Shown: positions 22,593 to 31,418 of the stretch, one piece after another | Layout of the letters: every line of letters starts with the position of its first letter | How positions within the stretch are numbered: position 1 is the stretch's first letter | Source of the DNA: Candidatus Eiseniibacteriota bacterium | GTDB lineage: Bacteria > Orphanbacterota > Orphanbacteria > Orphanbacterales > Orphanbacteraceae | Direction: 5' to 3' | NCBI GenBank assembly: GCA_024276995.1 | Contig: JAJRWB010000003.1 | Span: forward strand, 1-38,360 | Length of the DNA stretch: 38,360 nucleotides | Position numbers and translations under genes: made by a program | Notes under the pieces: model-generated | Databases searched by the model: none | What the model was told of the DNA's origin: nothing | The model's input: the letters and a program-made list of their open reading frames with translations, nothing else

Positions 22593-24482
22593 CTACGACA
22601 GATCGATGCGGAACGAACGGTTTTCCCGCGGTTTCAGCTTCTCCAAGCGGAGATTCAAACGATAACCGTCATCCGACAGGTCGTAATCGGGTTGCGGCGT
22701 TCCGACGATGTCGGACGAGATCCGGATCGAAGAGGGGCGCCGGGGCAGATCGAGGAAGGTCACGGCGCGCGGAACGGTTCTATCGTATTCGTTCGAAACA
22801 TGAACTGTCAGGCGGCCCGGGGACGTGACGTCCGCGCTCATGCGAAGAGCATCCCTCTCGACCCACCACTCCGCCACACCCGCCGCGGAGGTGATCCATG
22901 TCTTCTTCGAACGGACATGGTTCACCAGTTTCGGCATCACTTCCGCGACCCCCTCGCGGGCGAGGAGATGCGTGTGGAACGAGACGAAGTAGACCCCTCC
23001 GCGCATGTACTGCGTCTGGAACGAGCGCCTGTAGGCGTCGAGGATCTCCTTCGGTTCGTGAAGAGCGAGCTGTTCGATGATGTAATTGTCGTCATACCCG
23101 GTGCGCGGGATCGCGACGATCCTTCGCGCGCCGCCGCCCGCCGCGACGTGGGTTCCCGGCACGGTCAGGATCCGGGGCACCGCCGAGGGGAGGCGCACGC
23201 CGCCCACAAGGTAGCGATAACCGGCGGCGGCGAGCGCCGCCACCGTGTTGCCGTCATACTTCTCCTCCGGCGGTCTCATCCCGACGCACGGCGAGCCGGT
23301 GATCTCCTCGAGATCGTCCCGGCTGCGCGCGAGCCGCTCGTACTGCGTGTCGTAGCTCTCGCCGGCAAAGGGGGCGTGATTGTCGGAGTGGGAGCCCACC
23401 TCCCCCGTGCCGGCGAGGGAAGCGGTGAGGGGGGCGTTCTTCACGGCGGAGTCGGATACGCAGAAATACGTGATCGGCACGCCGATCTTCTCGAAAACGG
23501 AGCGCGTGGCGGCGGCGTTCTCGAAGTACGATTCGGTGTCCTGCGAGAAGACGACGGCGCACCGTTCGGCATCCGGCCATGTGGCGATCGCCCCGACGGT
23601 TCTGCCGGACGTCCATCGGACGGCGTTGACGGCCATCCGGTGGGGCGCGCCGACGATCTCCTTGTCGAACACCACGTTCGCCATGGTGAACCCGATCCAC
23701 ACGATCCGCCCCTTCCCGGCGCGGCGGCGCACCACGGCCGGGAAGATGTCCGCGGCGGCATCGGGGAGAATGTCGACGGGAGCGCCCGTGCCGTCGGCGT
23801 AGAATGCGGCGCTTTCTCCGTCCGCGCCGGTGACGGCGAGCGCGAAGCGGCCGTCGCGGATGCGGATCTTGAGGCCCGCCGGCAGGTTCGCGGTGACCGG
23901 CGTCTCTCCCCGGAGCGAGATGTACCAGGGGAGGACCGCCGTGGAGTCGGAGAGCGGGTCGACGATGGCGCCGCCGGTGAGAGTGCGCAGGAAATCGAAT
24001 GTCGCCCATGCCCCCGTTTCGTCGCGGCACCCCGTCGGTCCGGTGGCCACCACGCCTCCCCCCGCTTCGAGGAAGCGCGTGATCGCGTCGCGTTCCGCAC
24101 TCGAGAGACAGTAGACCCCCGGAAGAACGAGGTTGTCGTACTTCCGGTTCCCCGAGCGTCCCCACCGCTCGAGATCGTCGTCGTCGATCAGCTCGACGTC
24201 GGCGGCGCCCTCTTCGCTCCTCAGGTGATCGACCCAGAACCGCTCACCCCCGGCGAGGAACTCCGACCCGATCGACGCCCCGTAGTCCGCCGTGTACTTC
24301 GACACGAGCACCGCCGTCCGGGGCGGCGCACCCGCGAGCCAGCCGCCGGAGCGTCCGTCGAAGGAGCCGAGCACCGTCTTCAAGACGAGCAGGTAGATCA
24401 CGCCTGCGGCGCACACGAGGATGACGCCGAACAGGGCGGCGTACACCTTCACGAGCCAGCGTGGCTGCGGGCGGCTTCTCAC
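22593..24482 (-). CDS. Membrane-anchored polysaccharide deacetylase with N-terminal GATase-like domain (PgaB-like role)
   Basis: A 629-residue protein starting at GTG (24480-24482), overlapping the upstream stop by four bases. A single N-terminal membrane helix (about 13-36) anchors it, with the rest in the periplasm. Residues about 55-290 form an alpha/beta domain like the GATase-type domains seen beside glycosidases (LVLPGVYCLSSAERDAITRF, EAGGGVVATGP). Residues about 300-480 are a NodB deacetylase. Motif 1 is FSQDTE, with one Asp where most enzymes have two. Motif 2 is GSHSDNHAPF (metal ligands His365 and His369). Motif 3 is RPPEEKYD, and a late SFHTHL supplies the final His. A C-terminal beta-sandwich (about 530-629) ends it. 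Position behind a processive glycosyltransferase and an outer-membrane TPR-barrel suggests deacetylation of the exported polymer, as PgaB does for poly-N-acetylglucosamine. PgaB itself is an outer-membrane lipoprotein with a C-terminal hydrolase domain, so this is a different build. Confidence 0.82.
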   Translation of the reverse strand: MRSRPQPRWLVKVYAALFGVILVCAAGVIYLLVLKTVLGSFDGRSGGWLAGAPPRTAVLVSKYTADYGASIGSEFLAGGERFWVDHLRSEEGAADVELIDDDDLERWGRSGNRKYDNLVLPGVYCLSSAERDAITRFLEAGGGVVATGPTGCRDETGAWATFDFLRTLTGGAIVDPLSDSTAVLPWYISLRGETPVTANLPAGLKIRIRDGRFALAVTGADGESAAFYADGTGAPVDILPDAAADIFPAVVRRRAGKGRIVWIGFTMANVVFDKEIVGAPHRMAVNAVRWTSGRTVGAIATWPDAERCAVVFSQDTESYFENAAATRSVFEKIGVPITYFCVSDSAVKNAPLTASLAGTGEVGSHSDNHAPFAGESYDTQYERLARSRDDLEEITGSPCVGMRPPEEKYDGNTVAALAAAGYRYLVGGVRLPSAVPRILTVPGTHVAAGGGARRIVAIPRTGYDDNYIIEQLALHEPKEILDAYRRSFQTQYMRGGVYFVSFHTHLLAREGVAEVMPKLVNHVRSKKTWITSAAGVAEWWVERDALRMSADVTSPGRLTVHVSNEYDRTVPRAVTFLDLPRRPSSIRISSDIVGTPQPDYDLSDDGYRLNLRLEKLKPRENRSFRIDLS

Positions 24483-24676
24483 CGTTCGCCGTCCCGCGTT
24501 CCGTCGACCGGCCGATACTCGTATTTCCGGAAGAACGTCTTCCCTTTCCCGGCCGGAACGGGAAGTGGTTTCTTCGCCTCTCGCATCTTGTAGACCAGGA
24601 ACGATCCCGTGGCGATCACGATCGTCACGATGGTGGCCACCAGGATGATCGTGGAAAGAAGCGGAATGAGATCCAT
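24479..24676 (-). CDS. Small single-TM protein in the PgaD position
   Basis: A 65-residue protein from the ATG at 24674-24676, with a strong GGGAGGAA upstream. One hydrophobic helix spans about residues 4-30 (LIPLLSTIILVATIVTIVIA), followed by a basic, Pro-containing cytoplasmic or periplasmic tail. It overlaps the deacetylase gene by four bases (GTGA) and sits 16 bases after the glycosyltransferase gene. In the E. coli pga operon this is where PgaD is encoded, a small two-TM protein that joins PgaC to form the c-di-GMP-responsive synthase. There is no sequence evidence for homology, only size, topology class and position. The good binding site, coupled stop and codon use make it a real gene. 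Confidence 0.75.
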   Translation of the reverse strand: MDLIPLLSTIILVATIVTIVIATGSFLVYKMREAKKPLPVPAGKGKTFFRKYEYRPVDGTRDGER

Positions 24677-24692
24677 CGTTTTCCTCCCCGGC

Positions 24693-26030
24693 TCAGATCT
24701 TCCCGAGCCGACTCAGCTTTCCCCACGCCATGCGAAGGCCGAGCGCCTGTTCGACCATGGCATAGACTTTATAGATATCGATCAGCAATATAAAAACAAG
24801 ACGGTAGATCACGGCGTAGCCGACGAGAGAGAGGTCCTCCTTCTCCATGACGCTGCAGTGGAGCGCCATGGCGACGTCGAGGAGCGTGAGCTGCACCCAC
24901 CAGAGGACGAGCAGGCTCGAGAAGCCGTACACGGCGCCGACATAGATCAGCATCGTGTTGGCGGTGAGATTGACCACGGGCCAAACGATTCCCTCGAACA
25001 CCATGTAGCCGGTCACCGCCGGCACGGTGAGATCGCGCCAGGGGGGACGGAAGATGGAGCGCTGTTTCCACAGCGCCTGCAGGATCCCGCGGGTCCACCG
25101 GTAGCGCTGGCGGAGGAGGTCGCCGAGCCGTTCGGGCGCTTCGGTCCAGGCGACGGCGAGCGGCTCGTAGGTGACGTGCCATCCCCCTCGGAGGATCCGG
25201 AGCGTCAGGTCGCAGTCCTCGGCGAACGTGTCCCCCTCGTAGCCGCCCACTTCATCGAGCACGTGCCGCCGGAAGAGGCCGAGCGGTCCGGGAATGATGT
25301 TCACCGTGCGGAAATACGCCTGCGCCTTGCGCACGAGGTTCAGCCCCTCGATGTATTCGAGCGCCTGGAGACGCCCGAGGAGGGTCCCGCGGTTCGACAC
25401 CTTCACGTTCCCCGCCACCGCGCCGATCCGGGGCTCGGCGAAGTGGCGCGCCGCCATGGCGATGGAGTCCGGGTCGAGGCGCGAGTCGGAATCGATGCAC
25501 GCCACGATCTCGCCGGAGGCGCGGGCGATGCCGTAGTTGAGCGCCGCCGCCTTCCCGTTGTTCGCCGTGCTGAAGGCGAGAACGCGGCAAGGTCCGTGCT
25601 CACCCTCCCACCCCCTGGCGCGACCGAATGTTTCGTCGGTGGAGCCGTCGTCCACGATAATCACCTCGTATGCCGGGTAACGGAGGCGAAGGAGCGAGGC
25701 GACGGACGCATCGATCACTTTCGCCTCGTTGTATGCGGGAACGATGATCGAAACGAAGGGGAGGTCGGTGTCCTTGCCCGTTCCCCTCTCCTCGAGTTGC
25801 TGCAGCCAGGAGAACCAGAGAAGAAGGAGGTAGCGGGCCACCAGGATCAGAAGAAACGCGAGGAGGAAGACGATGAGCGTTTCCACCACCGTACCGGAAA
25901 GGGCGTCGCGCGTGCGGAGCACTACGAAATAGATCGCCCCCGAGCTTCCGAGTAGGGCGAAGGCGATGAGCACGAACAGGAGAAAATAGCGGCCCAGCCG
26001 CACCACCGCCGGTTTTCCTTCGGCGCTCAT
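24693..26030 (-). CDS. Processive family 2 glycosyltransferase (PgaC/IcaA-like exopolysaccharide synthase)
   Basis: A 445-residue inner-membrane synthase, close to the 441 residues of E. coli PgaC. Two N-terminal helices (about 13-35 and 45-70) precede the GT-A domain. Catalytic features are in order: FVSIIVPAYNEAKVIDASV, VDDGSTDETF, the metal-binding ACIDSDSRLDP, the catalytic-base region TFAEDCDLTLRI, and RQRYRWTRG (the QxxRW motif of processive enzymes). Three or more C-terminal helices follow (from VTGYMVFEGIVWPV). Such enzymes polymerise UDP-sugars, typically UDP-GlcNAc in the Pga/Ica branch, and push the chain through the membrane. No PilZ domain is fused, so any c-di-GMP control must come from another protein, such as the BcsE-like product of the first gene. 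The ATG overlaps the stop of the TPR-barrel gene by four bases. Confidence 0.92.
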   Translation of the reverse strand: MSAEGKPAVVRLGRYFLLFVLIAFALLGSSGAIYFVVLRTRDALSGTVVETLIVFLLAFLLILVARYLLLLWFSWLQQLEERGTGKDTDLPFVSIIVPAYNEAKVIDASVASLLRLRYPAYEVIIVDDGSTDETFGRARGWEGEHGPCRVLAFSTANNGKAAALNYGIARASGEIVACIDSDSRLDPDSIAMAARHFAEPRIGAVAGNVKVSNRGTLLGRLQALEYIEGLNLVRKAQAYFRTVNIIPGPLGLFRRHVLDEVGGYEGDTFAEDCDLTLRILRGGWHVTYEPLAVAWTEAPERLGDLLRQRYRWTRGILQALWKQRSIFRPPWRDLTVPAVTGYMVFEGIVWPVVNLTANTMLIYVGAVYGFSSLLVLWWVQLTLLDVAMALHCSVMEKEDLSLVGYAVIYRLVFILLIDIYKVYAMVEQALGLRMAWGKLSRLGKI

Positions 26031-27919
26031 CGCGCGACCCCGATCGACAGCGTCCAGCCGGTGGACCAGTAATCGCCGTCCGCGCGGATCACCCTGCCGT
26101 GATAGAACGACGACGATGCCTTCGCCCCCGCAGGCAGACGAAGCGAGCCGGCGAGCGAGAACTCCGTCGCGAAGCCGGTGACGGCGCCGGCCGTGTCTCT
26201 GCCGGCGAGCGCCTCCGCCTCGATGTCGTAACGGGAAGCGTACCGGGAGAAACGGATGCCTCCGCGGTGGCTCACGTAGCGATCGGGCGTCCAGTAGGCA
26301 TCGGACTCGTTGTCGTACGAGAGGTAGCTGCCCATGTAGCGAAGCTGCACGGAGGTGGATCGGAACGGGAAGAACGACACGTTGAGATTGCCTCCCCGGC
26401 TCCGGTTGCCGTCATCCACCCGGGAGAGCCTCCCGTCGGCGCGGGCGGTGAGCGGCAGGTCGGGCGTCCATTCGAAACCGGCGCTCCAGGCCTCCTCTCC
26501 GAGCGGTCCGTCGGCGGTCACCGTGGCGACCGAAAGGGCGCGGTCGATGAAATCAGATCGCTCGAAGCGGGTGGACGCCTTCCAGCGGATGTGATGCAGA
26601 TAGGAGGCGCCCGCGCTCCATTCCGCCGACGATCCCGCCTCGTTGTACGATCGCACCGCCCCCGCCGCGTCGATCGAAAAACCCCGGAGGAGAAGAAGCC
26701 GCGCGGTCACGGCGATCCGGTCCGCCCTTTCGCCGGCGCCGTTCTGGCGGTAGTCGGTTCTCCCGGCGATGATGCGGCCGCGGCCGCCCGCACCGAAGTC
26801 TCCGGCCACCTGGAACTCGGTCGTCGTGGCGCGAAATCCTTCCGAATCTCCCGTGTACCGGTAGGCGGGCGCCGCCTCGGCGCCGGCGATCGTTCCCGCC
26901 GCGGGGGCGGATCCGGTTCCGGCCGACTCTTTGCGCGCCCAGTCGCCGTGTCCCGTCCATCGGTAGAGAGTGGCGATCTGTTCCCGGGCGTTCCCGTTCG
27001 TTTCGTCCCTGTCGAGAAGGGCGCGGAAGTGGTCGAAGGCGCGCCGCTCTTTTCCCGCCCATAGGAGGACCGTCGCGTATTCTCCCTCGAGGGAGTCGCG
27101 CTTCGTCCCGTCCGGCGCCTTCTCCCATGCCTCGCGCCGCCGGACGATCTCCGCGGCGAGCCACTTCCGGTTCCCCTCTTCCGCTTCGCGCCGGAGCGCG
27201 TCGATCGCCCCGTCGGGATCGTCGAACAATTCGCGACCGAGGACCGAGTCGGCCGCTTCGAAGGCGGTATAGAAGTCGGAGGCGGTGATGAGCGATTCGA
27301 GCCACGCGATGAACCGGTCGCGGTCGCGCGGGTTCGCGTCGAGCCTTCCCTTCGCCATTCGCGCCGCGTACCGCGGGTTCGCGTCGAGCCTCTTGATGCC
27401 GTCCATCGCCTCGCGGTTGTCCGGTTCGATGAGAAGCGCCGTTTCGTACTGGGTGCGGGCCTTGTCGAACTCGTCGAGCCACGAGAAGAGATCGCCCCGT
27501 GCCGTATGAACGGCGCTTCCCCGGAGGCGGTGGCGGTCGAGAAGGTCGAGCCCCTCGCGACTCTTTCCGGACCACCCGAGCACGAGGGCGAGTTCGACCG
27601 CGGCGGAGTCGCGTGCCGCGGCGGGGAGGAGATCGAGGTCGAAGAGCCGCCGGTAGGCGACGACCGACTCGTCGAGCCTTCCGCTCCACGAGAGGGCGCG
27701 TGCGACGCCGAGGAGCATCCGGGCGTCCTCCGTGGTGGGACCTGTCCCGCCCTCGCCGAGGGCGAGCGTGTATCCGCCGGTGAGGGAAAGTTCCGGCGCG
27801 GAAGCGTGTGCGAGGGGGAGAGAAGGGAGCGAGGGGAGCGCCGGCGGCGCCGCGGCGAGGAGGACGGGAACGAACGTGGTCGTTGCGAGAGCGTGGATCA
27901 TCCGGGGCCGGGCGGTCAC
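26027..27919 (-). CDS. TPR plus outer-membrane beta-barrel export protein (PgaA-like)
   Basis: The preferred start is a GTG (27917-27919) overlapping the upstream stop (GTGA), as elsewhere in this operon; it gives the signal peptide a basic n-region (TARPR). An ATG at 27899-27901 is the alternative. The 630-residue product has a signal peptide to about residue 40. Helical TPR-type repeats follow (about 55-320: ARALSWSGRLDESVVAYRRL, LFSWLDEFDKARTQYETALL, LEGEYATVLLWAGKERRAFD). A C-terminal half (about 335-630) alternates polar and hydrophobic residues with many Tyr/Arg, as in a transmembrane beta-barrel (for example FPFRSTSVQLRYMGSYLSYD). PgaA has the same order, TPR then barrel, and exports de-N-acetylated poly-GlcNAc across the outer membrane. 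The last residue is Arg rather than the usual aromatic, which is unusual for barrel assembly. Confidence 0.8.
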   Translation of the reverse strand: MTARPRMIHALATTTFVPVLLAAAPPALPSLPSLPLAHASAPELSLTGGYTLALGEGGTGPTTEDARMLLGVARALSWSGRLDESVVAYRRLFDLDLLPAAARDSAAVELALVLGWSGKSREGLDLLDRHRLRGSAVHTARGDLFSWLDEFDKARTQYETALLIEPDNREAMDGIKRLDANPRYAARMAKGRLDANPRDRDRFIAWLESLITASDFYTAFEAADSVLGRELFDDPDGAIDALRREAEEGNRKWLAAEIVRRREAWEKAPDGTKRDSLEGEYATVLLWAGKERRAFDHFRALLDRDETNGNAREQIATLYRWTGHGDWARKESAGTGSAPAAGTIAGAEAAPAYRYTGDSEGFRATTTEFQVAGDFGAGGRGRIIAGRTDYRQNGAGERADRIAVTARLLLLRGFSIDAAGAVRSYNEAGSSAEWSAGASYLHHIRWKASTRFERSDFIDRALSVATVTADGPLGEEAWSAGFEWTPDLPLTARADGRLSRVDDGNRSRGGNLNVSFFPFRSTSVQLRYMGSYLSYDNESDAYWTPDRYVSHRGGIRFSRYASRYDIEAEALAGRDTAGAVTGFATEFSLAGSLRLPAGAKASSSFYHGRVIRADGDYWSTGWTLSIGVAR

Positions 27920-29535
27920 GGCGAAACGGTCTTCGGCTTCCCCGCGCCGAGCGCGGGGCATGCCGCGAAGGACCGGACCAGCGTCTTGAGGAACGGTTGC
28001 ACGTCGGAGCCGGTCGAGCCGGCGCTCCACCGCGCCGTGCCGTACCGGTATCGCACGGGCGGCTCGCCGCCGAAGTGGGCCTTCTCGCGCTCCCACAGCC
28101 GTCGGTGAAACGCTTCGAAGCCCGCCTCGTCGGCGCCCACGAGAAAGGCGGCGAGTTCTCCGCCGGCGACACCGACCACCAGATCGTCGTCGCGCAGGCA
28201 TTCGAGAGCGACGCGCGCCGCTTCCGCGGGGGCGGACCGCTCCGCCGCGCCGTTCCCCTTTTCGGCCGCCACCGGCGTGAAACGGACGAGATAGCCGATC
28301 GCGTCGATATGCGTCTCGGCGAGCACTCCCGCGAGGTTTTCGAATCTCTCCATCGAGCCGGCGCTGAGCGAGGGGAGTGCATCGGTGGAGCCGGAGGTGA
28401 GGATCGTTCGAACCGTGGCGATCGGGCCGACGCCCCGGTCCGCGCACGCCTCCATGAAGGCGCCTTCGGTGAGGCTCGTATCGACGCCGCCGTCCGGGTG
28501 CACCTTTTGGGGGAGTTTCCCGACGCGAAAGCGGATTTCATCGGGATGCGTGTCCCGCCCGAGGACTTCGTCGGCGCCGACGCGGAAGCAGCGCACCCTG
28601 TCGAGAGAACGCATTCTCGACGGGCCGATGAACAGAACGGGCGTGGTCGAGCCGTTCTCTTTCAGTCGTGAACAGATTTCGAAGGGCTCCGAGTCGTCGT
28701 GTTCGAGATCGAGCACCACCAGGGCCGGCGGATGATGGATCAGCCGGGTGAACAGATCGATCGACGACCGAAGGGGGATCACCTCGAAGCGGTTCCCGAG
28801 GATCGCCTGGAGATCGAGCGACTCTCCCCGCGCGAGGTGAAGAACCGGCCGCGTGTCCGTGCTATTCGAATCGTTCGGCGACTCGCACGGCGCCGCATCG
28901 TCGATCGAAACGACGCGGCCCGCGAGGCGGGTGCCGCGCAGTTTCCGTACGAGCACCTCCCGCCTTCCACTCTCCCTCGCGCGGATGGCGAACACGCCGA
29001 AGGCGTAACGTTCCACGATCGACCGGGGGTAGACCGTATCGCCCTCGCCGTCGGTGTCGGCCATGAGGAGCGTGGCGGGCATGTCGTCGAGCCTGCCGAG
29101 CAGGGTGGTCACGAAACCCATGTTTCCCGTCACCGGATAGCGCGACTGGAGGAGTGCCGAGAACGACTCCACCACCACGCGGCTCCGTCCCTCGGCGAGG
29201 CGGACGATCTCATCGCCGATTCCGTGGGCGTCGCCGTTCCCCGTCACCATGTCGGCGTACCCGTCTTCGGGATGGTAGATCACGAGACGGTCGCTCTCGA
29301 GATGGGCCGTCGGATCGAAACCGAACGTTTCGGCCGTGAGAAGCAGGTCTTCCGGTTTCTCCGAAGCGATGAGAAGGCACCGTTCCTTGCGATCGAGGCC
29401 CTCTTTCAGGAAGCGAAGGGAAAGCTCCATCTTGCCCGAGCCGCATGGTCCGGTGATGAAATAGAACCGTCCGGCGACGACACCGCCGGTGACGGCGTCC
29501 AGTTCGGGAATGCCGATGAACTGCCTGCTCTCCAT
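27916..29535 (-). CDS. BcsE-like c-di-GMP sensor: degenerate KaiC/NTPase, receiver-like and degenerate GGDEF domains
   Basis: A 539-residue cytoplasmic protein from the ATG at 29533-29535. GGGAGGAA lies upstream at a long spacing of about 12. Residues 1-215 resemble a KaiC/RecA-like ATPase (FIGIPELDAVTGGVVAGRFY). Walker A is GPCGSGKM at 29-36, with Met where Thr or Ser should be; Walker B has become VVVESFSALL, and the usual E-E pair is E-K. Residues about 228-343 form a receiver-like domain with Asp276 in ALVVLDLEHD but no acidic pair after the first strand; an RSLD motif is at 309-312. Residues about 350-539 are GGDEF-like, with AGGEL (457-461) for the signature and RDDD (448-451) exactly where the RxxD inhibitory-site motif sits. 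The same order and size describe BcsE, a c-di-GMP receptor of cellulose synthases. It heads the exopolysaccharide operon and is coupled to the barrel gene. Confidence 0.82.
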   Translation of the reverse strand: MESRQFIGIPELDAVTGGVVAGRFYFITGPCGSGKMELSLRFLKEGLDRKERCLLIASEKPEDLLLTAETFGFDPTAHLESDRLVIYHPEDGYADMVTGNGDAHGIGDEIVRLAEGRSRVVVESFSALLQSRYPVTGNMGFVTTLLGRLDDMPATLLMADTDGEGDTVYPRSIVERYAFGVFAIRARESGRREVLVRKLRGTRLAGRVVSIDDAAPCESPNDSNSTDTRPVLHLARGESLDLQAILGNRFEVIPLRSSIDLFTRLIHHPPALVVLDLEHDDSEPFEICSRLKENGSTTPVLFIGPSRMRSLDRVRCFRVGADEVLGRDTHPDEIRFRVGKLPQKVHPDGGVDTSLTEGAFMEACADRGVGPIATVRTILTSGSTDALPSLSAGSMERFENLAGVLAETHIDAIGYLVRFTPVAAEKGNGAAERSAPAEAARVALECLRDDDLVVGVAGGELAAFLVGADEAGFEAFHRRLWEREKAHFGGEPPVRYRYGTARWSAGSTGSDVQPFLKTLVRSFAACPALGAGKPKTVSP

Positions 29536-29654
29536 GATTCGATCGATTCCTCCCGTGAACGGCTGTCGGGCAAGGGAGTCACCGTGCAAATCCTGTACCG
29601 GAATTGAGCAATGGGCCTTCGTGGTCGGAAGGGGGAACGGAGGGGACAGAACCG

Positions 29655-29762: not shown

Positions 29763-30938
29763 TCAGTACTCGGGAAGATTCGGGTCGATCTCTCTCGCCC
29801 ACCGGTTGATGCCGCCGGCGAGATTCCACGTCTTCCGAAAGCCGAGCCGGGAAAGGTATTCCACCACGCGCGCGGAGCGGATGCCGGTCCGGCAGTAGCA
29901 TACGATTTCAGCATGGCCGTCGAGTTCGCCCAGGCGGTCGGGAATCTCGTTCATCGGGATCAGCGTCGAACCGGGAAGCTCGCTGATCTCTCTCTCGTAC
30001 GGTTCGCGCACGTCGAGGAGGAGGAATGTCCGGTCGCCCGAATCGAGTCGATTCTTCAGCTCTCCCACCGTCATCTCACGGGGAGGCGCCGGTGATTCCC
30101 CCGGCGCTTCACCGCTGTCCGGGTCATCGTCCCGACCGCCGCCGCAAAGCTCCTCGTAGTCGACGAGGGCGGTCACCTCAGGCGAGTCGCCGCACACGGA
30201 GCACGCCCGGTTGCGTCTCAGTTTCATCGTTCGGAAGCTCATGCCGAGAGCATCGTAGAGAAGAAGCCTTCCTGAAAGGGTCTCGCCCTTGCCGAGGAGG
30301 ATCTTGATCGTTTCGGTCGCCTGGACCATGCCGATCAGACCCGGAAGGACGCCGAGAACGCCCCCCTCGGCGCATGACGGCACCATGCCCGGCGGCGGCG
30401 GTTCCGGGTAGAGGCAGCGATAGCACGGCCCGCCCCGGTAGTGGAATACCGAGGCCTGGCCCTCGAACCGGAAAACGCTCCCGTAGACATTCGGAATGTC
30501 GAGCAGCACGCATGCGTCGTTCACCAGGTAGCGCGTGGGGAAGTTGTCGGTGCCGTCGGCGACCACGTCGTACCCTTTCAGGATGGAAAGGGCGTTCGCG
30601 GAGGTGAGTCTCTCTTCGAACGTATCGATTCGCACGTGCGGGTTGATCCGTGCAAGCCGCTCCTTTGCCGACTCGGTCTTCCGCCGGCCGACGGCGGACG
30701 TATCGTGCAGCACCTGGCGCTGCAGGTTGGAAAGATCGACCTTGTCGAAGTCGGCGATGCCGATGCGGCCGACTCCCGCCGCCGCGAGATAAAGGGCGAG
30801 CGGTGAGCCGAGCCCGCCTGCGCCGACGAGAAGAACCGATCCGGCTTTCAGTTTCTCCTGTCCCGCAATACCGACTTCGGGAAGCACGAGATGACGGCTG
30901 TAGCGGAGGTGTTCGTCCTTTTCGAGGGGTCCGTTCAT
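29763..30938 (-). CDS. moeZ: MoeB/MoeZ-type E1-like adenylyltransferase with C-terminal rhodanese domain
   Basis: A 391-residue protein from the ATG at 30936-30938. The N-terminal domain (1-255) is a ThiF/MoeB enzyme that adenylates the C-terminal Gly of a ubiquitin-like sulfur carrier. VLLVGAGGLGSPLALYLAAA binds ATP, LSNLQRQVLH supplies the Arg/Gln pair, ADGTDNFPTRYLVND holds the catalytic Asp, and CYRC plus CSVC form the zinc site. After an acidic, Pro-rich linker, residues about 285-391 form a rhodanese domain with LLDVREPYE and the persulfide loop CRTGIRS, so sulfur can be transferred to the activated carrier. Such fusions serve molybdopterin, thiamine or cysteine (CysO) synthesis. Its ATG overlaps the stop of the JAMM protease gene. 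The matching small sulfur carrier is not in the window. Confidence 0.95.
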   Translation of the reverse strand: MNGPLEKDEHLRYSRHLVLPEVGIAGQEKLKAGSVLLVGAGGLGSPLALYLAAAGVGRIGIADFDKVDLSNLQRQVLHDTSAVGRRKTESAKERLARINPHVRIDTFEERLTSANALSILKGYDVVADGTDNFPTRYLVNDACVLLDIPNVYGSVFRFEGQASVFHYRGGPCYRCLYPEPPPPGMVPSCAEGGVLGVLPGLIGMVQATETIKILLGKGETLSGRLLLYDALGMSFRTMKLRRNRACSVCGDSPEVTALVDYEELCGGGRDDDPDSGEAPGESPAPPREMTVGELKNRLDSGDRTFLLLDVREPYEREISELPGSTLIPMNEIPDRLGELDGHAEIVCYCRTGIRSARVVEYLSRLGFRKTWNLAGGINRWAREIDPNLPEY

Positions 30939-31384
30939 GCAGGTATCCCCTTCGTAGTGCCGGCGATGACGATCAGCTCCGGATGAAGCGCGCGCGAGTG
31001 GCGGGGGCGGTGCCATGCACGGATCCCGCCCGGCACGCCCCGTCTCACCTCGATGATCACCGTAGTGGAACCGGGCCAGGCGTTCGCCCCGTCGCGCGCC
31101 GATGGAATCGGAGGACGATCGGGATGAGAGTGGTAGAAGCCGATGATCTCGAACCCCCCGGCCCGGGCGTGCGCGATCGCCCGCCATACTTCCTCCGGAT
31201 CGATCCGAAACCGCCCCGCCGCTCCCGGGTGCTCCGTGCGATTCGCGGCGGCGTAGACGACATCGACCACGCGGTGCGCGGCGTCGCGCCGCCCGGCGAG
31301 GAAGCCGCAGCACTCGTCCGGCCACGCCTTCGCGCCTTGTGAGCGGATCGTATCGAGCCGTTCCTTTTCGAAGCGGATCGCCAT
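30935..31384 (-). CDS. JAMM/MPN+ metalloprotease (Mec-like), acting on sulfur carriers
   Basis: A 149-residue protein from the ATG at 31382-31384, with AAGGAACGGG upstream. The JAMM zinc motif is complete: Glu in PDECCGFLAG (about residues 23-32) and HSHPDRPPIPSARD, a perfect H-x-H-x7-S-x2-D. Prokaryotic members such as Mec of Mycobacterium cleave cysteine from the C-terminus of the ubiquitin-like carrier CysO, or trim MoaD/ThiS-type proteins. Overlap by four bases with the MoeZ-type gene makes the pair one translational unit, which fits a carrier-activation and release cycle. The last 40 residues are basic and less conserved (RAWHRPRHSRALHPELIVIA). Confidence 0.92.
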   Translation of the reverse strand: MAIRFEKERLDTIRSQGAKAWPDECCGFLAGRRDAAHRVVDVVYAAANRTEHPGAAGRFRIDPEEVWRAIAHARAGGFEIIGFYHSHPDRPPIPSARDGANAWPGSTTVIIEVRRGVPGGIRAWHRPRHSRALHPELIVIAGTTKGIPA

Positions 31385-31418
31385 CCCGTTCCTTTTCGCC
31401 GTGCATGAACCTGAGAAG

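Follow-up and report, generated by a model that had tools for sequence, protein, structure and literature searches.

PgaD binds c-di-GMP jointly with PgaC, and PelD is a receptor with a degenerate GGDEF domain and an I-site that is encoded beside an exopolysaccharide (EPS) synthase. A third c-di-GMP receptor, BcsE, is to our knowledge found only in proteobacterial cellulose systems. In cellulose secretion BcsF tethers BcsE at the membrane, and BcsE employs its degenerate domains for protein contacts as well (PMC7439463, PMC11470070). The PssE protein of the Listeria pssA-E operon is likewise a degenerate-GGDEF I-site receptor encoded next to an EPS synthase (PMC4125290). Here we describe a five-gene operon from a 38,360-nucleotide stretch of DNA of a Candidatus Eiseniibacteriota bacterium (contig JAJRWB010000003.1; the whole stretch is termed the window below), of which literature searches returned no description. 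A sequence-only reading had presented it as a new hybrid form, in which a BcsE-type sensor drives a Pga-like machine. The claim of novelty is overstated, since degenerate-GGDEF I-site receptors beside EPS synthases are already known in the form of PelD, PssE and BcsE.

Organization and distribution of the operon

The five genes occupy positions 29535-22593 of the window, and they and all features listed below lie on the minus strand. Gene 1 (27916..29535, 539 aa) encodes a soluble protein with degenerate KaiC, REC and GGDEF domains, a putative c-di-GMP receptor. It is followed by gene 2 (26027..27919, 630 aa) for a TPR protein with a predicted outer-membrane beta-barrel porin, gene 3 (24693..26030, 445 aa) for a processive GT2 synthase of the PgaC/NodC-like kind with EDCD and QRYRW motifs, gene 4 (24479..24676, 65 aa) for a protein with a single conserved transmembrane (TM) helix and an FFRKY tail, and gene 5 (22593..24482, 629 aa) for a protein combining a TM anchor, a GATase/GH42M-like domain, a NodB deacetylase and a C-terminal domain. 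The tight coupling proposed earlier agrees with these coordinates: junctions 1/2, 2/3 and 4/5 are 4-base overlaps, with GTG starts in genes 2 and 5 yielding theirs, and genes 3 and 4 are separated by a 16-base gap. Upstream of gene 1, at a distance of 65 bases, lies a sigma-54-like site (29585-29600); it was rejected because shuffled sequences match in 6% of cases and orthologues do not conserve it.

The identical gene order, which had been suggested as a check on the linkage of gene 1, recurs in one relative of the same family and in six loci from Calditrichota, named MAGs included; the operon was not found in any other sampled family. Within the Calditrichota the sensor and the synthase occur in the same 10 of 39 genomes (co-occurrence 10/10, p about 2e-9), and the linkage of gene 1 to the other operon genes is far beyond chance. 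BcsB is missing from all 12 carrier genomes and BcsA, BcsC, BcsQ and BcsR from the operon, as expected from the reported absence of cellulose genes. An EPS operon with a degenerate KaiC-REC-GGDEF protein is present in two distant phyla without cellulose genes.

Domain architecture of the gene 1 protein

The gene 1 protein is soluble and has no TM segment. Pfam/NCBIfam searches recovered a KaiC/RecA-like domain at residues 8-206 (28918..29514; Pfam KaiC, 4.1e-15) and a weak match to Response_reg, which together with the sequence itself places a REC domain at about residues 228-343 (28507..28854). The GGDEF domain, at about residues 395-526 (27958..28353), is assigned in the window protein by the secondary structure of its model and by collinearity with homologues that have Pfam GGDEF matches, rather than by a Pfam match of its own. 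Pfam detects KaiC in 11/11 homologues, REC in 9/11 and GGDEF in 8/11. All three domains are degenerate. The P-loop (residues 29-36, 29428..29451) reads GPCGSGKM, with the counterparts GNIGSEKL in genome G001 and GP..SGR in most Calditrichota, and none of the 11 homologues has an intact G....GK[ST]; the REC domain lacks the acidic pair and is therefore probably phosphorylation-incompetent; and AGGEL stands where GG[DE]EF would be expected. Pfam results on the homologues and inspection of motifs thereby bear out the domain order and degeneracy given by the sequence-only reading. A GGDEF-like fold in the C-terminal part is supported through the family of the protein: the AlphaFold model of a homologue has PleD and WspR as its top PDB matches, followed by KaiC, which is the outcome that the earlier proposal called for. 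The model of the window protein is of low confidence (pLDDT 54), and Foldseek searches with it gave KaiC alone among the best 50 matches; a phmmer search of the PDB with the C-terminal domain of a homologue gave no match.

Two RxxD motifs are collinear with those of BcsE. The motif R309SLD in the REC domain (28600..28611) was automatically paired with BcsE R306ATD in the alignment, and its counterparts are RALD in G001 and RAKD in stand-alone paralogues. The candidate I-site R448DDD in the GGDEF domain (28183..28194), five residues ahead of the degenerate GGDEF motif, is collinear with BcsE R415TGD. From these features we infer that gene 1 encodes a c-di-GMP receptor. The window's own lineage combines a BcsE-like build with I-site motifs at both places, outside cellulose systems.

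The remaining genes

Profile and TM predictions agree with the domains first given to genes 2 to 5. Pfam/NCBIfam searches find TPRs in gene 2. The PgaA and BcsC models each match 5/7 of its homologues, all TPR-rich, and neither is listed for the window protein; the profiles do not assign the porin to either PgaA or BcsC, as the matches are unspecific beyond the TPRs. The single TM helix of gene 4 spans residues 3-21 and is strongly conserved together with the FFRKY tail; the protein has no family match in Pfam/NCBIfam. The gene 5 protein has one N-terminal TM helix (residues 16-34), a GATase/GH42M-like domain (113-269) and a NodB domain (322-424), the last supported by Pfam/NCBIfam; the anchor and the GATase/GH42M-like domain had not figured in the first description. 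An exact counterpart of this protein (P0004) in a single Calditrichota protein was considered and rejected, because NodB there belongs to a secreted protein of its own and no NodB match is seen in the homologue with the TM anchor. Genome G351 has a gene 5 homologue to which a segment resembling gene 4 is apparently fused, with no KaiC protein nearby, so that gene 4 may serve the synthase and deacetylase rather than tether the gene 1 product.

Comparison with described systems

The gene 1 protein shares with E. coli BcsE the order of KaiC/RecA-like, REC and GGDEF domains, all degenerate, a length of about 530 aa, a degenerate P-loop and RxxD at both I-site positions. Both this operon and bcsEFG open with the sensor gene and have 4-base overlaps, and in both a small one-TM protein precedes a membrane-anchored polymer-modifying enzyme, which is a deacetylase here and a pEtN transferase (BcsG) in the cellulose system. 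Gene 4 resembles BcsF in size, position, single TM helix and cytosolic tail, with FF.K..Y in both tails. Unlike the synthase of type II cellulose secretion, gene 3 has no PilZ domain. The Pel system too combines a degenerate GGDEF I-site receptor with a TPR-barrel exporter and a deacetylase; however, PelD carries a GAF domain and TM helices where gene 1 has KaiC and REC domains and no TM helix, and its synthase PelF is a soluble GT4 whereas gene 3 is a GT2. The operon therefore falls outside the Pel type as defined by a membrane-anchored receptor with GAF and degenerate GGDEF domains and a GT4 synthase. PssE shares with gene 1 a degenerate GGDEF domain in which RxxD lies five residues ahead of the dead motif, but it has no described KaiC or REC domain and belongs to a Gram-positive system without a porin.

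Proposed mechanism and alternatives

From the genes observed, their coupling and conservation, the degeneracy of the domains and the places of the motifs, we propose, with a probability of roughly 0.6, that the operon encodes a synthase-dependent, non-cellulose EPS secretion machine switched by gene 1 as the c-di-GMP receptor, with gene 4 as a possible tether; the ligand, the tethering, the activation of the synthase and the identity of the polymer are what we infer. Gene 3 would build the polymer from a HexNAc-type sugar and pass it across the inner membrane, gene 5 would de-N-acetylate it in the periplasm, and gene 2 would convey it through the periplasm and outer membrane. The catalytically dead gene 1 protein would bind c-di-GMP via the I-site of its GGDEF domain, aided by the second RxxD on the REC domain, and would turn the synthase on. 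Gene 4 would probably act much like BcsF in its tethering of BcsE, keeping the products of genes 1, 3 and 5 assembled at the membrane. We count against this mechanism the lack of RxxD at either site in Calditrichota, the non-significant BcsE profile match, the unlikeness of gene 4 to BcsF, the fusion in G351 and the low confidence of the window protein's model. This kind of link between a second messenger and biofilm production is suggested to extend beyond cellulose, and the operon offers an independent system for asking whether dead proteins of the KaiC-REC-GGDEF build serve more generally as c-di-GMP switches of membrane polymer synthases. It is a tentative further idea that such a receptor and a small TM tether form a portable control module independent of the polymer; were this true, BcsE-BcsF would be one instance and the present operon another, possibly older.

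That gene 1 belongs to the machine and yet senses another signal, with the KaiC domain oligomerizing and the REC and GGDEF domains being a mere scaffold that recruits the synthase, is rather unlikely in our estimate. All three domains are degenerate, BcsE likewise uses them for protein contacts, and in the Calditrichota homologues neither BcsE-equivalent site retains RxxD (RGxND occurs in these proteins, with RYMD further on) and the GGDEF hairpin is shortened. Against this, the arginine equivalent to R448 is invariant in 11/11 homologues, both RxxD motifs are retained in the window protein, in its G001 homologue and even in the stand-alone REC-GGDEF paralogue of G001, and real, active diguanylate cyclases are present in all system carriers examined. 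We consider it quite improbable that gene 1 is truly orthologous to BcsE, if very diverged, and gene 4 truly a BcsF, the two having moved as a module between cellulose systems and this one, although the equal domain order and length, the leader position, the overlaps and the shared tails would fit. In hhalign comparisons the gene 1 family is collinear with BcsE over 405 columns, and matched domains outscore mismatched ones (N-terminal domain 0.013 and GGDEF domain 0.0076, against 0.35-0.53 for mismatched controls), but the full-length match is not significant (P = 0.084). The BcsE profile PF10995 matches E. coli BcsE as a control but neither gene 1, G000 nor any of the 386 sampled genomes, and BLASTP gives no alignment of gene 4 with BcsF. 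Thus, of the BcsE-type sensor first proposed, the domain order and the register of RxxD with both I-sites hold and membership of the BcsE family is not supported; by these profile comparisons gene 1 is not a demonstrable BcsE.

With the proposed c-di-GMP-switched machine, or with a gene 1 protein that senses another signal, the nature of the product is a separate matter. The polymer is probably a poly-HexNAc. A polymer unrelated to PNAG, for example a chitin-like or mixed one of the wall or sheath type, is possible, if doubtful: gene 3 scores 217 bits against a PgaC equivalog cut-off of 422, about half, NodC is the next best model, and other related GT2s have GH18-like or deacetylase-like proteins beside or joined to them. 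On the other hand, the Pga-like character of the synthase stands, PgaC_IcaA being the best NCBIfam model for gene 3 by 90 bits, and its deacetylase and TPR porin partners are as in Pga. Strict Pga membership does not follow from this, in view of the score, of the lack of any PgaD match (gene 4 has one TM helix and no family assignment) and of the lack of PgaB or hydrolase-domain matches in Pfam/NCBIfam, where NodB alone was matched. Compared with PgaABCD, then, the operon shares a PgaC-like GT2, a TPR-barrel exporter and a NodB deacetylase, lacks PgaD and the PgaB hydrolase domain, and adds a cytosolic receptor and a GATase-like domain on the deacetylase; a Pga-type synthase here seems to work without the PgaD mode of control.

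Results and discussion

The five genes at positions 22593-29535 of the window indeed form a minus-strand operon with the coordinates and junctions (three 4-base overlaps and one 16-base gap) described in the sequence-only reading. In the product of gene 1 (29535-27916, minus strand), Pfam recognizes a KaiC domain at 4.1e-15 and, weakly, REC at 2.3e-4, while the product of gene 2 comprises TPRs followed by a C-terminal part rich in strands. Gene 3 specifies a GT2 enzyme, whose top NCBIfam model is PgaC_IcaA (217 bits against a cut-off of 422) and whose second is NodC (126 bits). The gene 5 protein combines a TM helix and a GATase/GH42M-like domain with a NodB deacetylase domain that, judged by its sequence, retains the D-T-E, HSDNH, RPPEEKY and HTH motifs. 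A sigma-54-like element (CGGTACAGGATTTGCA, 29585-29600, minus strand) 65 bases before gene 1 was rejected, being neither significant nor conserved. The genes next upstream of gene 1 (29763-31406) resemble ordinary sulfur-carrier genes, one frame having the sequence appearance of a JAB/M67-type peptidase and the other that of a ThiF/MoeB-rhodanese protein.

Across 11 gene-1 homologues, Pfam recognizes the KaiC domain in all, REC in nine and GGDEF in eight. The AlphaFold model of the window protein is poor (pLDDT 54), and the helix/strand order of the GGDEF domain is nonetheless visible in residues 395-524; the model of a homologue from Calditrichota is better (pLDDT 67 for the whole chain, mostly 70-87 within GGDEF), with PleD and WspR as its best PDB matches, followed by KaiC. 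All three domains look dead (hence KaiC*-REC*-GGDEF*, the asterisk denoting degeneracy) because: 1) the P-loop is broken in 11/11 homologues; 2) the acidic pair of REC* is absent; and 3) GG[DE]EF is replaced by AGGEL, SGCDV or a shortened hairpin. In the window protein, the I-site motif RxxD is found precisely five residues ahead of the dead motif in GGDEF* (R448DDD), and again in REC* (R309SLD) at the place of the second BcsE I-site, R306ATD; unconstrained hhalign pairs RSLD with RATD in an alignment that is itself not significant. Both motifs recur in the sensor of G001, the relative in the window's family, and in the Calditrichota homologues the GGDEF* arginine is invariant with the aspartate shifted (RGxND). 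Genuine GGDEF cyclases occur in every system carrier examined, with three GGDEF matches in the window's genome. Stand-alone REC*-GGDEF* proteins lacking KaiC are also encoded in G001 (a paralogue at L027:8019-9005, near topoisomerase VI-like and cysteine desulfurase-like genes) and G005 (L028:96-833); they keep RxxD in both domains (RAKD, RRDD) and are a second candidate c-di-GMP receptor of the window's family.

BcsE is likewise a degenerate NTPase-REC-GGDEF trio, which binds dimeric c-di-GMP through a composite R306ATD/R415TGD site and is recruited by BcsF, a one-TM protein whose tail acts through beta-strand addition (PMC7439463, PMC11470070). The E. coli bcsE-bcsF-bcsG genes show the same 4-base overlaps as the window operon. 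The proposal of a BcsE-type sensor thus holds for anatomy but not for membership: gene 1 cannot be classified as BcsE, since PF10995 matches neither it nor anything in the 386 sampled genomes, and an hhalign comparison with eight BcsE sequences falls short of significance (P 0.084). By domain, matched pairs do score better, at 0.013 and 0.0076 against 0.35 and 0.53 for mismatched ones. Between gene 4 and BcsF no similarity was detectable. Gene 1 may still act as BcsE does. As for the reported lack of cellulose genes, BcsB is absent from all 12 carrier genomes.

Within the window's phylum (seven genomes searched) the same-order operon occurs only in the window and G001. Beyond it, among 386 genomes sampled across the domain, G013 and G300 alone had full-length sensors; both are from one phylum, which the named loci L071-L076 identify as Calditrichota. 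Ten of 39 Calditrichota genomes carry the sensor, and exactly those ten also have the gene-3 family (chance agreement 1.6e-9). All six named loci there (L071-L076) begin with sensor, TPR porin, GT2 and small TM protein; where the contig suffices, the next genes encode a NodB protein that is secreted and a GATase-like one with a TM anchor. A scan of 84,980 species genomes, whose reach is limited to relatives matching its peptide patterns, recovered no further carriers. In G420, a single 1057-residue frame (L070:603-3776) joins a KaiC*-REC*-GGDEF* protein to a TPR porin with a hydrophobic stretch between; as the GT2 on that contig is interrupted by stops, this is possibly a sequence error or a real fusion.

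Most likely, gene 1 would bind c-di-GMP, its presumed ligand, and so activate the synthase complex; in the periplasm, gene 5 would modify the putative polymer that gene 2 exports. Degenerate-GGDEF I-site receptors adjoining exopolysaccharide synthases are already known in PelD and BcsE, and in PssE with DKDDA and RxxD (PMC4125290). What is new is that a KaiC*-REC*-GGDEF* receptor accompanies a non-cellulose machine of Pga-like type, a pairing conserved across two distant phyla; the open literature searched, where most subscription papers are missing, contains no earlier description of the locus.

Gene 4 encodes 65 residues with a single TM helix. Its first 36 residues, mainly this helix, are identical at 16-19 positions between the window and Calditrichota, a conservation that exceeds what a passive anchor would need. 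In G351, with no sensor nearby, a gene-4-like segment (called on position and an FFKKY motif, since by eye the helix is ~19% identical) is apparently the N-terminus of a gene-5 homologue adjoining a GT2; gene 4 is thereby linked to synthase and deacetylase, and may tether gene 1 too. The G351 protein (L100:5479-7626) apparently continues with another TM, a domain resembling GATase and a part that looks like a degenerate deacetylase; the related GT2 is at L100:7623-8978, and close by lie a protein of outer-membrane type and one with a divergent REC, but no KaiC sensor. The long cytosolic tail of the Calditrichota proteins carries short conserved motifs (S.AQ.AF, LR[RK]F and a terminal W[KR]), those at its end looking like docking motifs. 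These tails are of low complexity and span 145-285 residues (L071:7036-7737, L072:16585-17319, L073:9666-10280, L075:16708-17250, L076:14805-15764), and L074:16218-17446 has two copies of the gene with a short ORF in between.
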